Source: Longimicrobiales bacterium (GTDB lineage: Bacteria > Gemmatimonadota > Gemmatimonadetes > Longimicrobiales > Gaopeijiaceae). Taken from it: a stretch of 64,000 nt of DNA. Position 1 is the stretch's first letter; every line of letters starts with the position of its first letter. A program made the position numbers and the translations under genes. This document shows positions 4,007 through 53,184 of the stretch, piece by piece. The notes under the pieces were generated by a model. That model made no database searches, was not told the DNA's origin, and was given only the letters and a program-made list of their open reading frames with translations. The stretch covers positions 2,012,501 through 2,076,500 of the forward strand of contig OY282361.1 in assembly GCA_958295645.1 (NCBI GenBank), read 5' to 3'.

Positions 4007-4639
4007 ATGAAGCGCAGATTTCGGATGGGAACGGCCCCGGCGCTGGGGGCCGCAGTGCTGATCGCGGGACTGGCCGCGGGATTCGCCGCCGCGGCGCCGC
4101 AGCTGGTTGCCGCGCAGGAGCCAGGGGCGGGACTGCTCGAAGCCGGGGCCGAAGCGCCCGACATCGAGTTGACGGCGGCGACGCGCCACGGCGTGCTCAG
4201 GGACAAGATCAAGCTGAGCGACTACCGCGGCGAGACGGTCGTCCTGGCGTTCTTCTTCAGAGTCAGGACGCGTGGCTGAACGGTTCAAATGAGAGCGTAC
4301 CGGGATCAGTACGCAGAACTGTTCAACGAGGGACGAAACGTGGTCGTGCTGGGCATCTCCAACGACTCGCCCGAGGAGTTGGCCTCTTGGCTGAAGGACG
4401 AGGACTTCCCGTTCCTCTTCGGGAGCGACGCCGAGAACGACGGAGCGTCCTACGCGGCGTTCGGCGGATCGTTGCGGGACAACGACATGGTGGACAGCCG
4501 TGCCGTGATCGTGGTCGGGCCGGACGGGCGGATCGCGAAGGTGATCCCCCGCTTCAACCAAGTGGACCCCGCGGCTTACGAAGAGCTGGCGGCCGCGGTG
4601 GACGCCGTGACGCCCGCCGGCGAAGCGTCTTCCCCGTAA
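4007..4639 (+). CDS. Exported peroxiredoxin-like protein, probable selenoprotein (Sec91)
   Basis: The reading frame is open from ATG 4007 to 4639 except for one in-frame TGA at 4277-4279 (codon 91). Before it: a signal peptide (about residues 12-36) and a peroxiredoxin N-terminus, GAEAPDIEL, then LSDYRGETVVLAFFF. After it: TVQMRAYRDQYAELF, VVVLGISNDSPEEL, and a normal AhpC/TSA C-terminus ending VVGPDGRIAKVIPRF. Peroxiredoxins of the BCP/AhpC type read T-x-G-C-T at their peroxidatic cysteine; here the text is TRG-[UGA]-T. The protein has no cysteine anywhere else. A hairpin starting at the UGA (4278-4324) fits a bacterial SECIS element. The best reading is a 210-residue peroxidase with selenocysteine at the active site, acting outside the cytoplasm. 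The alternative is a sequencing or nonsense error. An ABC ATPase follows after 20 bases. Confidence 0.8.
4278..4324 (+). promoter_or_regulatory. SECIS-like hairpin of the peroxiredoxin gene
   Basis: A two-part stem-loop begins inside the UGA. The lower stem pairs GAACGGTTC (4278-4286) with GAACTGTTC (4316-4324), nine pairs including one G-U. The upper stem pairs GCGTAC (4295-4300) with GTACGC (4309-4314), six perfect pairs. The apical loop CGGGATCA (4301-4308) has G at its second position and starts 22 nt after the UGA. Bacterial SECIS elements lie directly after the UGA with a G near the start of a small apical loop, bound by SelB. The same nucleotides also encode conserved protein, so covariation would be needed for proof. 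Confidence 0.65.
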
Positions 4640-4659
4640 GCCGGACGGACACGCAGCCG

Positions 4660-49099: not shown

Positions 49100-49621
49100 C
49101 TATTGCCGCGACGCGACTCCTTGGACCTCGAAGCGGGCGCCGAACAGCAGGGTGCCGGCCCCGATGAACGCGCGCGCCGGATACTCGGTCGTGAAGTACG
49201 TCTTGTAGACGCTGTTGAACGCCTGGTAGTCGCCCACGTCCGAGGCGAACACCTGGACCGACACCAAGTCGTCCATGGTCAGTCCCGCGCTCTCCAGCAG
49301 GCCCTTCACGTTGTCGAGGACGTTGGCGGCCTCGGCCTCGGCGGTCTCGGGGACCTGCCCGTTGTCCAGCCCCAGCTGGCCGGAGAGATAGAGGGTGGAG
49401 CCGACCCACACGGCGCCGCTGAACGGAAGCGCCTCCGCGTCGGCGGGCGAGCGGGCGCCGACGTACTCGCGGCTGGGCTCTTGGTCCGCTTCGGCCTCGG
49501 CGGAGGCCGCCGCGTCGGCGCTGGCTCCGGCGTCGCAACCGGCGTGCAGGAGAGCGGCCAGCGGAAGGGCGAGGAGGAGCGGTGCGGGCGCCGGGCGCCG
49601 GCGAGGTGTTCCATGACTCAT
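49100..49621 (-). CDS. RidA/YjgF-family lipoprotein
   Basis: A 173-residue protein. The N-terminus is a lipoprotein signal with LLALPLAALLHAGC (lipobox Cys at about residue 29) followed by an Ala/Asp/Glu-rich linker. From about residue 58 the RidA fold runs: ALPFSGAVWVGSTLYLSGQLGLDN, AANVLDNVKGLLESAGLTMD, VSVQVFASDVGDYQAFNSVY, and YPARAFIGAGTLLFGARFEV. The arginine that contacts the substrate carboxylate in RidA is present in ARAFIGAG. Membrane-anchored RidA proteins are less common than cytosolic ones. It precedes the aminotransferase on the same strand. Confidence 0.87.
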   Translation of the reverse strand: MSHGTPRRRPAPAPLLLALPLAALLHAGCDAGASADAAASAEAEADQEPSREYVGARSPADAEALPFSGAVWVGSTLYLSGQLGLDNGQVPETAEAEAANVLDNVKGLLESAGLTMDDLVSVQVFASDVGDYQAFNSVYKTYFTTEYPARAFIGAGTLLFGARFEVQGVASRQ

Positions 49622-49741
49622 CGGATGCGTACCTTGATGGCGAGAGGACTTCGCCGGCCCGGTTGCCGCAACGAAACGGAAGCCGACGGCGCTCCAGCAA
49701 TTGTACGGGGTCGAACGCCCGTCTGCAACGAAAGCCGAGGA

Positions 49742-50098
49742 ATGAGCGTCGCCGTGGACTGGCGGTACCACCGCCCGGGCTGAACCAGCTGCAAGCGCAC
49801 GCAAGAGTTTCTTGCGAAGAGCGGAATCGAGACGCGAACGCTGCGCCATGCCGGCAAGGAGCCCGTGGAGGGCGGCGCCGCCCTGGCGCTGCTGGAGGGA
49901 GCGGCCGAGCTCCTGGTGGCGAAGGGCCGGAAGGTCGAACGGTTCGACCTCCGGCGAGCCCGCCCGCCCGACTCCGAGCTGCTCGGGATGATCCTCGGCC
50001 GTTCGGGCAAGCTGAGGGCGCCCGCCATGCGCACCGGCGGCGTGCTGGCCGTCGGATACAACGCGGAGATGCTGGAGTCGCTGTTCGGGAAGACGTGA
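49742..50098 (+). CDS. ArsC/Spx-like redox protein, probable selenoprotein (Sec14)
   Basis: A 118-codon frame from ATG 49742 to 50098 contains a single in-frame TGA at 49781-49783. Before it: MSVAVDWRYHRPG. After it: TSCKRTQEFLAKSGIETRTL, then AALALLEGAAELLVAKGRKV, ELLGMILGRSGKLRAPAMRT and VLAVGYNAEML. The motif reads [UGA]-T-S-C-K-R, which matches the C-T-S-C-R-K redox motif at the start of Spx and related ArsC-fold proteins, with UGA replacing the first Cys. The downstream order of helices and the late LRAP segment fit ArsC-like folds. A perfect 7-bp hairpin with loop GTT lies 16 bases after the UGA. The most likely product is a 118-residue selenoprotein with a Sec-Cys pair. Without UGA readthrough only 77 residues lacking the active site could be made. 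Confidence 0.78.
49800..49816 (+). promoter_or_regulatory. SECIS-like hairpin of the ArsC/Spx-like gene
   Basis: A perfect stem CGCAAGA (49800-49806) and TCTTGCG (49810-49816) with the three-base loop GTT (49807-49809). The loop begins 24 nt after the UGA and has G then U at its first positions, as in SelB-binding hairpins. The spacing almost equals that of the peroxiredoxin hairpin in this window (loop at +22). Confidence 0.62.
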
Positions 50099-50277
50099 GG
50101 CGGCGGCCTCCCCACTGGCCAGCCATCGAAGGCGGCGGCATATTCCCGGTTCTGCCCGGTTCTGCCGCCCCGCCTCGCGCCCCAAGCCGCGTTTCGGCCC
50201 CCGGCGCGGCGCCCTCGTCGCCCACGTCGCCTTCGCGTGCAACCCACGCTTCGCACCCAATCCCCGGAGCCTCGCGC

Positions 50278-53184
50278 ATGACACGCTCTCGCATTCCGTC
50301 CTCCGCTTCCCGCACGTTCCTCCTGGCCGTGGCGGCGACCATGGTGGCCGCCTGGCCGGCCGCCGCCCAGCAGCGTCCGCTGGACCACGACGACGTGCTG
50401 CGCTGGAACGCGATCTCCAACCCGTCGCTGTCGCCCGACGGGCATTGGGTGGCCTTCGTCCTGTCGGCCATGGAAGGCGACCCGTCGCTCACGGTTCGGG
50501 AGGCGGAGGAGGGCGGCCGCGCTCTCGTGGTTCGGGGGACGGACCCTGTCTTCACGTCCGACTCGCGCTACCTGGTCTACGAAGTCGCGCCGTTGGAAGG
50601 CCTGCTCGACTCGCTGAAGCGCGAGGGCAAGAAGGGCGACGATCTCCCGGGGGACTCGCTCGCCGTGGCCAGCCTGGAACTCCTGTTCGGCGACGGGAGC
50701 CCGCAGCCGTCGGGAGTCCGCACCGTAGGCGCGATCGAGAGCTACAAGGTCGCGGGTCGCGGCAGTTGGGTGGCCTACGTCCCCGTTGAAGAAGACACGG
50801 AAGAGGAGACGGAAGAAGAGGCCGAGAACGAGGAATCGGAGCCGGAAGCCGAAGCTCCGGAACCGGAACCGGAGAGGCCGGACGGAGACGACGAGAAAAA
50901 GAAGAAGCCGGGCTCGCCGCTGGTCGTCCTCGACCTCGCCACCGGAGAGGAGACCCGGTACGAACACGTCGACAGCTACCACTTTGCGGAAGAGGCGCCC
51001 GTGCTGCTGTTCGCCACGTCCACCGAAGACGGGACTGGCGACGGCGCCTACGTCGTCGACTTGAACGACATGACCCGCTCGGCGCTCATGGAGGGCGAAG
51101 GCCACTACAAGCAGCTCGCGCTGGCGAAGGAAGGAACCCGCGCCGCCTTCCTGTCCGACCGGGACGACTACGACGCGGACCAGCCCGAGTTCGTCCTCTA
51201 CCAAGCAGCCGCGCCGGAGTGGGAGGGCCGCGCCGCAGCCGGCTCCGCCACGGAAGGCGTGCCAGAGGGCTGGTGGGCCAGCGAGAACGGGAGCGTTCGC
51301 TTCTCGGAAGGAGGCTCGCGCATTCTCTTCGGCACCGCGCCCCGGCCCGAACCGGATCCCGAGGAGGACGAGGAGCCGCTGGACGAGGACAAGGTGACCT
51401 TGGACGTCTGGAACTGGAAGGACCCCTATCTCCAGCCCATGCAGCTCGTCCAGGCCGAGCAGGAGAGGAAGCGCACCTACGCCGCGGCGGTCTCGGTGGA
51501 CGGGGGCGCCGTGGTTCAGCTGGCCTCGCCGGAGGTGCCCACCGTTCGGTTCGCCGCCGAGGGCGACGCGGAATACGCGGTGGGCGTCACCGACGTGCCC
51601 TACCGGCAACTGCTCTCGTGGGACGGACGCTACAACGACGTCTACGCCATCGACATGGCCACGGGAGAGCGGCGGCGAATCGCGGAGAAGGTCAAGGGCT
51701 TCGGCGGCGCTTCCATCTCGCCTGCGGGGGGATACGCGGCCTGGTGGGACGGCGGCGCGCGCCACTGGACGGTCGCGCCGCTGGACGGCGGCGAGTCTGC
51801 GGCGGCCAGCGCGCAAGTCCCGCACCCGGTATGGAACGAGCTCGACGATCACCCCGACCTGCCCCCGCCCTACGGCTCCCCCGGGTGGACCGAAGACGAC
51901 GAAGCCTTCCTCTTCTACGACCGCTACGACGCCTGGGCCTTCGACCCGGCCGCGCAGACCGTCGCCAACCTGACCCAGGGCGCGGGCCGCGAGGCCGGAA
52001 TCCGCCTCCGCTACGCCCGCACCGACCCCGAGCTGGATCACATTCCCGGCGGCGACGCCCTCTGGGACGCCTTCCACTACACGGACAAGCGGGCCGGCTT
52101 CTTCCAGGGACGCGCCGACCGCCCGGCCCAGCCCCGGGAAGTCGTCATGGCGGACAAGCGGTTCCGTCTTCGCGGCAAGGCCGAGGACGCGGACCGCTGG
52201 CTCCTCACCCGAGAGGACTTCCGCGAGTTTCCCGATCTTTGGGTCACCGACGGCAGCATCACCGACATGGCCAAGATGTCCGACGCCAACCCGCAACAGG
52301 CGGACTATGCGTGGGGCTCGGCGGAGATCGTGGAGTGGGCGTCCAACGACGGCGTCGCCCTCCAAGGCATCCTCTTCAAGCCCGACGGCTTCGACGCGTC
52401 GCGCAAGCATCCCATGATGGTGTACTTCTACGAGCGCATGTCGGACGGCATCCATCAACACCGGTCGCCGCGTCCCGGCGGCTCGTCGATTTCGGTGCCC
52501 TTCTACGTGAGCCGGGGATACGTGGTCTTCATCCCCGACATCCCCTACGAGATCGGCTACCCGGGCGAGAGTGCGCTGGATGCGGTGGTGCCCGGCGTGC
52601 TACGCGTGCTGGCGGAGGGATTCGTGGACAAGGACCGCATCGGCGTGCAGGGCCATTCCTGGGGCGGATACCAGATCGCGTACATGATCACGAAGACGCA
52701 CCTCTTCGCGGCCGCCGAGGCTGGGGCTCCGGTGAGCAACATGACCAGCGCCTATGGAGGGATCCGCTGGCAGTCGGGCATGAGCCGCATGTTCCAGTAC
52801 GAGCGCACGCAGAGCCGAATCGGCGGCACCCTGTGGGAGTCCACGAGCGAGTACCTGCACAATTCGCCGGTCTTCTACGCCGACAAGATCGAGACCCCCC
52901 TGCTCATGATGCACAACGACGAAGACGGCGCGGTGCCGTGGTATCAGGGGATCGAGATGTTCGTCGCCATGCGCCGATTGCAGAGGCCGGTGTGGATGCT
53001 CAACTACAACGGCGAGGCCCACGGGTTGCGCAGAGAACCGAACCGCAAGGACTGGGCCGTGCGCATGCAGCAGTTCTTCGACCACTATCTCAAGGACGCC
53101 CCTGCTCCCGTCTGGATGGAAGACGGAATTCCGGCCGTGGACAAGGGCAGGACCCTGGGAACGAAGACCAAGGTGGTCTCCTGA
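50278..53184 (+). CDS. Exported S9 family prolyl-oligopeptidase-like peptidase
   Basis: A 968-residue serine peptidase with a signal peptide (FLLAVAATMVAAWPAAAQQ, about residues 14-32). A beta-propeller-like region follows, starting NAISNPSLSPDGHWVAFVLS (about 43-62). It contains a long acidic insertion at about 172-217 (EEDTEEETEEEAENEESEPE). The C-terminal alpha/beta hydrolase domain has the nucleophile GVQGHSWGGYQIAYM (Ser about 794), the acid in MMHNDEDGAVPWYQG, and the His in NYNGEAHGLRR. It should cleave peptides in the periplasm or outside. ATG 50278 is the first start that gives a signal peptide. A strong hairpin follows the stop. Confidence 0.92.
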   Translation: MTRSRIPSSASRTFLLAVAATMVAAWPAAAQQRPLDHDDVLRWNAISNPSLSPDGHWVAFVLSAMEGDPSLTVREAEEGGRALVVRGTDPVFTSDSRYLVYEVAPLEGLLDSLKREGKKGDDLPGDSLAVASLELLFGDGSPQPSGVRTVGAIESYKVAGRGSWVAYVPVEEDTEEETEEEAENEESEPEAEAPEPEPERPDGDDEKKKKPGSPLVVLDLATGEETRYEHVDSYHFAEEAPVLLFATSTEDGTGDGAYVVDLNDMTRSALMEGEGHYKQLALAKEGTRAAFLSDRDDYDADQPEFVLYQAAAPEWEGRAAAGSATEGVPEGWWASENGSVRFSEGGSRILFGTAPRPEPDPEEDEEPLDEDKVTLDVWNWKDPYLQPMQLVQAEQERKRTYAAAVSVDGGAVVQLASPEVPTVRFAAEGDAEYAVGVTDVPYRQLLSWDGRYNDVYAIDMATGERRRIAEKVKGFGGASISPAGGYAAWWDGGARHWTVAPLDGGESAAASAQVPHPVWNELDDHPDLPPPYGSPGWTEDDEAFLFYDRYDAWAFDPAAQTVANLTQGAGREAGIRLRYARTDPELDHIPGGDALWDAFHYTDKRAGFFQGRADRPAQPREVVMADKRFRLRGKAEDADRWLLTREDFREFPDLWVTDGSITDMAKMSDANPQQADYAWGSAEIVEWASNDGVALQGILFKPDGFDASRKHPMMVYFYERMSDGIHQHRSPRPGGSSISVPFYVSRGYVVFIPDIPYEIGYPGESALDAVVPGVLRVLAEGFVDKDRIGVQGHSWGGYQIAYMITKTHLFAAAEAGAPVSNMTSAYGGIRWQSGMSRMFQYERTQSRIGGTLWESTSEYLHNSPVFYADKIETPLLMMHNDEDGAVPWYQGIEMFVAMRRLQRPVWMLNYNGEAHGLRREPNRKDWAVRMQQFFDHYLKDAPAPVWMEDGIPAVDKGRTLGTKTKVVS

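Follow-up and report, generated by a model that had tools for sequence, protein, structure and literature searches.

A predicted selenoprotein gene of the NF041106 family with a UxxC motif and a conserved SECIS-like hairpin in a Longimicrobiales genome

We analysed a 64,000-nucleotide stretch of a Longimicrobiales genome (hereafter the window; the source genome is a single contig of 2.89 Mb) and found that a gene on its plus strand belongs to the already catalogued NF041106 selenoprotein family. Our preferred reading, to which we give a probability of roughly 87%, is that an in-frame UGA is recoded through a downstream hairpin, that Sec14-x-x-Cys17 forms the active site, and that the product is a small oxidoreductase of the dithiol type. 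Comparison shows four elements of this reading: recoding of the codon, the hairpin, membership of the family, and the fold. The features concerned are as follows.

49100–49621, minus strand: divergent neighbour encoding a RidA/YjgF (Ribonuc_L-PSP) protein (for context)
49737–49741, plus strand: GAGGA, a possible weak Shine-Dalgarno sequence picked out by inspection, directly abutting the ATG
49742–50098, plus strand: predicted ArsC/Spx-like selenoprotein gene, encoding 118 residues with Sec14, stop TGA at 50096–50098
49781–49783, plus strand: UGA predicted to be read as selenocysteine (Sec14), with TGA in relatives and Cys in distant homologues
49790–49792, plus strand: codon of Cys17, the putative resolving half of the U-T-S-C pair, invariant in an 11-member alignment
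49800–49816, plus strand: SECIS-like hairpin CGCAAGA-GTT-TCTTGCG, 7 bp with loop GTT, supported by pairing, covariation and codon bias
50278–53184, plus strand: next gene downstream, encoding a member of the S9 prolyl oligopeptidase family (for context)

The frame starts at ATG 49742 and codon 14 is its sole internal TGA; the first-pass annotation had described it so, with correct coordinates. Thirteen residues, M-S-V-A-V-D-W-R-Y-H-R-P-G, precede the UGA and T-S-C-K-R-T-Q-E-F-L-A follows it, giving the motif U-T-S-C-K-R. In relatives, too, the start lies about 6–7 residues ahead of a conserved Trp. The GAGGA is a weak candidate because its spacing to the ATG is below the usual. Standard gene prediction would overlook this gene or cut it short, since it begins with a 13-codon stub and has longer spurious frames overlaid on it. 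Upstream of the S9 peptidase, its frame stays open for about 700 nt (49582–50277, plus strand) and crosses the gene in another frame; longest-ORF gene calling, which adopts this extended frame, would conceal the selenoprotein gene.

Translated with Cys at the UGA, the protein scores 114.4 bits against the NCBIfam model NF041106, 'ArsC family (seleno)protein' (cut-off 85; residues 5–110 on model positions 1–106/107), and 28.6 bits against Pfam ArsC (PF03960; cut-off 24). All 11 members of our alignment match NF041106, and the UxxC that this family calls for, with Sec or Cys first, is present as TGA at codon 14 together with Cys17. When TGA is read through, this locus, with one TGA inside, is the sole Pfam ArsC match at E≤0.001 in its own genome. 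The score against the Spx/MgsR model TIGR01617 is 24.8 bits, below the cut-off of 75.05, and no match of the window protein to the TIGR00014 ArsC arsenate reductase model is listed at E≤1.

The first-pass annotation had named two results that would refute its reading, homologues lacking Cys or Sec at the column opposite the UGA and a genome lacking selenocysteine machinery; we checked for both, and neither was the case. A protein search of 58 related genomes gave 13 clear homologues besides the window's own locus (50–66% identity). Two of these are partial, and every one of the 13 has TGA at this codon. The search also gave eight weaker loci (L016–L023, 22–27% identity) with Cys at the UGA column in 8/8. 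Scanning a single genome for each species recovered 55 relatives, labelled mostly Gemmatimonadota with some Acidobacteria, Planctomycetota and Gammaproteobacteria; TGA stands at the codon in 55/55, a count that may miss Cys versions because the scan favours members keeping TQEFLA, whose sequence the hairpin fixes. A profile search of the phylum (395 genomes) is free of this bias. It returned 67 matches over the cut-off in 66 genomes, 67/67 with one TGA inside, the position of which was read in the fetched loci, the other matches being known as 'one TGA inside'. No Cys version over the NF041106 cut-off was seen in this sample of 395 genomes. Thirteen further matches (64–75 bits), from one other family of the class, have one TGA each, and the three of them that were read contain U-T-S-C. 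Among viral contigs, eight pattern matches yielded no confirmed relative. Within the sampled phylum the family appears to be Sec-only, and it would suit a study of the reasons for retaining Sec. As a separate observation, in one homologue (L014, in G020) the similarity stops about 47 residues beyond the UGA and the sequence continues in another frame; this could be a frameshift, an assembly error or a decaying copy.

The hairpin had been described as a perfect 7-bp stem with loop GTT starting 16 bases downstream of the UGA, and exactly such an element lies at 49800–49816, its loop starting 23 nt after the UGA. Its 7 bp, loop GUU and 23-nt distance agree with the bSECIS rules quoted in the available portion of PMC13188914. 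Its folding energy is ordinary: −8.5 kcal/mol for the hairpin alone (centroid) and −10.1 for 38 nt, with a z-score of −0.12 for a 45-nt piece, and a perfect stem of at least 7 bp so placed follows 15 of the 980 TGA trinucleotides in the window (about 1 in 65). Because energy alone is non-significant, we built the case on covariation and codon choice. In a gap-free alignment of 55 hairpin sequences, 98.2% of cells are paired, compensatory changes occur at 3 of the 7 pairs, with both sides changed in nine cells, and the loop GTT is invariant. None of 500 shuffles matched the pairing or the compensatory value, and slid registers of the alignment were 31–70% paired. These 55 comprise 46 of the 56 scan sequences (near-duplicates of the same stretch omitted) and nine others; the count excludes duplicates such as L120, as well as L123–L125 and L130–L132, in which the hairpin is in another register or missing, and L127–L129 were read after it. 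The six sequences L123–L125 and L130–L132 belong to two more distant families: the hairpin is present in a shifted register in L130–L132, and no clear equivalent was seen in L123.

The pairing is kept even where the protein changes. Specifically, the closing pair goes from A-U to G-C in L118–L122 despite a Glu to Gly change, and two pairs change together in L007 despite Gln to Arg and Ala to Glu. Codon choice is skewed as well: the Phe codon within the hairpin is TTT in 54/56 and the Leu codon CTT in 56/56, against 9/89 and 50/655, respectively, over the remaining sequence past the UGA in those genes. We regard the hairpin as significant because it is conserved: the relatives all keep the TGA, compensatory changes occur, and the codon skew is found inside the hairpin only. 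Conservation of R-T-Q-E-F-L-A is not to be taken as catalytic, because the hairpin visibly dictates those residues.

A search for selenocysteine machinery, also suggested at the outset, found every component over its curated cut-off in the same genome: SelA (471.3 bits, cut-off 267.9), SelB (316.9, cut-off 242.25), SelD (370.3, cut-off 125) and tRNA-Sec (79.5, gathering 47). The family tracks this machinery. Among 24 genomes it is present in 11/15 with SelB over the cut-off versus 1/9 without; the genome breaking the pattern (G007) does have SelA, and its assembly is 82% complete. SelA was found in 10/11 family-bearing genomes tested, and gave no match in G002, which has a partial family gene in an assembly of 830 contigs that is 88% complete. 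The SelD gene (L029, G000:C1:2528068–2528988) has its own in-frame TGA and is for that reason probably itself a selenoprotein gene; SelD selenoproteins are known in other bacteria.

On these comparisons the UGA at 49781 is very probably a selenocysteine codon. The GC-rich window lists many overlapping ORFs, and long open frames are cheap in it because stop codons are rare in such DNA, as would suit an ordinary stop followed by a pseudogene remnant or noise. That reading, which we find scarcely credible, is already contradicted by a UGA at this codon flanked by conserved protein in all 55 relatives, by the one TGA inside all 67 matches over the cut-off, by the compensatory hairpin changes and codon constraint, and by the full Sec machinery. 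Equally hard to credit is a changed genetic code in which UGA is decoded as Cys or Trp: Cys does occupy the UGA column in distant homologues, but TGA also terminates the selenoprotein gene itself, and the conserved hairpin and the Sec machinery would be left without a role.

The AlphaFold model has a pLDDT of 92.3. The closest solved relatives by sequence profile are Spx proteins (best five, E 8.7e-10 to 2.4e-9), and Spx is also the best match by Foldseek (E 1.1e-4) and by VIA-align (Z 9.0, rmsd 2.6, 88 residues aligned). YffB, NrdH and ArsC come close behind Spx in the fold search, whose top rows have Z 8–9, only moderately above background, and nothing should be concluded from families missing there. 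The UxxC superposes on the CxxC of Spx. Alignment with Spx/ArsC proteins bore out the initial placement of the UGA at the first-Cys position, and Cys17 falls opposite the second Cys of the Spx motif. Residues W7, R8, Y9, H10, R11, G13, Sec14, Cys17 and Pro94 are invariant in 11/11, as would be the case for an active site.

The Spx likeness raises the possibility of a redox-sensing regulator, in which Sec14-Cys17 would switch binding to the RNA polymerase alpha subunit and so alter transcription. Besides being the nearest solved relative by sequence and by fold, Spx shares the C-terminal VGYN stretch with the window protein, and the TIGR01617 model is matched by 11/11 members at E≤0.001. Against this, the protein lies far under the cut-off of that model (24.8 vs 75 bits), and Ala (Ala93), not Arg as in Spx and ArsC, stands ahead of the cis-Pro in 11/11. 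Spx is, moreover, a regulator of Firmicutes. We consider the regulator reading unlikely, and quite unlikely its extension to a selenium-dependent transcription switch, with a distant Spx-type RNA polymerase partner and a Sec-Cys pair sensing oxidants; if true, such a switch would operate in a lineage seemingly without a Cys version, to judge from the UGA in all 67 matches.

An arsenate reductase with catalytic Sec would accord with the Pfam ArsC match over the cut-off. In alignment with ArsC-type proteins, however, Val59 takes the place of the Arg of the ArsC LLR-T-R motif. We take the Val59 and Ala93 columns to be Arg60 and Arg94 of E. coli plasmid ArsC, which bind arsenate; with neither arginine kept, ArsC-type arsenate binding is unlikely. 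Nor were ars genes present among the three nearest window neighbours scanned. We hold this reading to be very unlikely, even though the available portions of two reviews (PMC9312934, PMC13188914) call the family 'arsenate reductase-like'.

The gene neighbourhood names no substrate. Gene calling and clustering over 66 loci (the 55 scan loci, the window and ten others) found no operon conserved across genera that would do so, the clustering being blurred by many overlapping false ORFs; neighbours are common to close clades only, the commonest being a downstream family in 28/66. In the window an aminotransferase also adjoins on the other strand, like RidA. By tblastn, RidA matches occur in 17/67 loci, the aminotransferase in 8/67 and the S9 peptidase in 15/67, the latter two counts coming from wrong-frame queries and being indicative only.

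A general Sec-Cys oxidoreductase is favoured because the ArsC arginines are not kept and no neighbour family is kept across relatives, and the protein is most likely one of the Spx/glutaredoxin type. The hairpin, 16 nt past UGA 49781, would direct SelB and Sec-tRNA to insert selenocysteine at that codon. The resulting protein of 118 residues would adopt the ArsC/Spx (thioredoxin) fold and have Sec14-x-x-Cys17 as its active site. For its redox chemistry, including substrate and reductant, we infer that Sec14 would attack an oxidised substrate, that Cys17 would resolve the intermediate with formation of a Sec-S bond, and that a cellular thiol system such as thioredoxin would recycle the Sec-S form.

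Other UGA-containing genes were noticed. The UGA of the selenoprotein gene had been counted as the second in-frame UGA of the window, correctly, the other lying in a peroxiredoxin selenoprotein gene at 4277. The latter (AhpC-TSA, 76.8 bits; frame about 4124–4640, plus strand) has its UGA at 4277–4279, where the peroxidatic Cys would be expected (T-R-G-U-T), followed by a 6-bp stem with an 8-nt loop. TGA is held by 15/16 close matches (at least 52% identity, its own included; 29 related genomes), and the match in G034 has none. A different ArsC-type protein (L060, in G023) reads YEKPT-UGA-TTCRKL where L058 and L061 have CTTC; it is nearest TIGR00014 (94.7 bits, just under the cut-off) and apparently represents a separate Cys-to-Sec change in one genus. 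Similar ArsC-type matches in G216, G300 and G345 are known as 'one TGA inside' only, and SelA is present in all four genomes.

The first-pass annotation had called a Sec-Cys selenoprotein of the ArsC/Spx fold unusual. The selenoprotein itself stood, through the UGA, the hairpin, the fold and the Sec machinery; its being unusual did not, since the kind is curated and already published. We take cd03032, an entry used in this literature, to be the Spx domain. ArsC-like selenoproteins were reported in 2005, with UxxS (PMC1088965), and in 2006 (PMC1794560), and a 2008 Global Ocean Sampling survey listed 'Arsenate reductase 2' (cd03032, UxxC) with 42 sequences and 238 Cys homologues (PMC2398784). 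A 2022 review places the UxxC form under COG1393 (PMC9312934), and a 2026 review tabulates 'Arsenate reductase-like protein, NF041106, UxxC' (PMC13188914). In the available portions of this literature we found no functional test of the family.

Compared with known systems, the window protein shares with the TIGR00014 ArsC arsenate reductase (glutaredoxin) the superfamily fold but not its Arg positions. With Spx (e.g. of Bacillus subtilis; PDB 3ihq, 6ghb, 1z3e) it shares the fold, the CxxC position, the cis-Pro and VGYN, whereas Spx has Cys for Sec and Arg for Ala ahead of the cis-Pro, and the window protein scores far below Spx family cut-offs. 'Arsenate reductase 2', as presented in the available portion of PMC2398784, likewise has an ArsC/Spx-type domain with UxxC; it consists of marine metagenome sequences, likened to the window protein by description only, and has its Cys homologues, against none over the NF041106 cut-off in our phylum sample. 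From NF041106 (ArsC_rel_Se_1) itself there is no difference of substance: the match runs over the whole length above the cut-off, with Sec in UxxC at the same place. The window protein is a Gemmatimonadota-type member of this family, to which it adds a clean comparative case.
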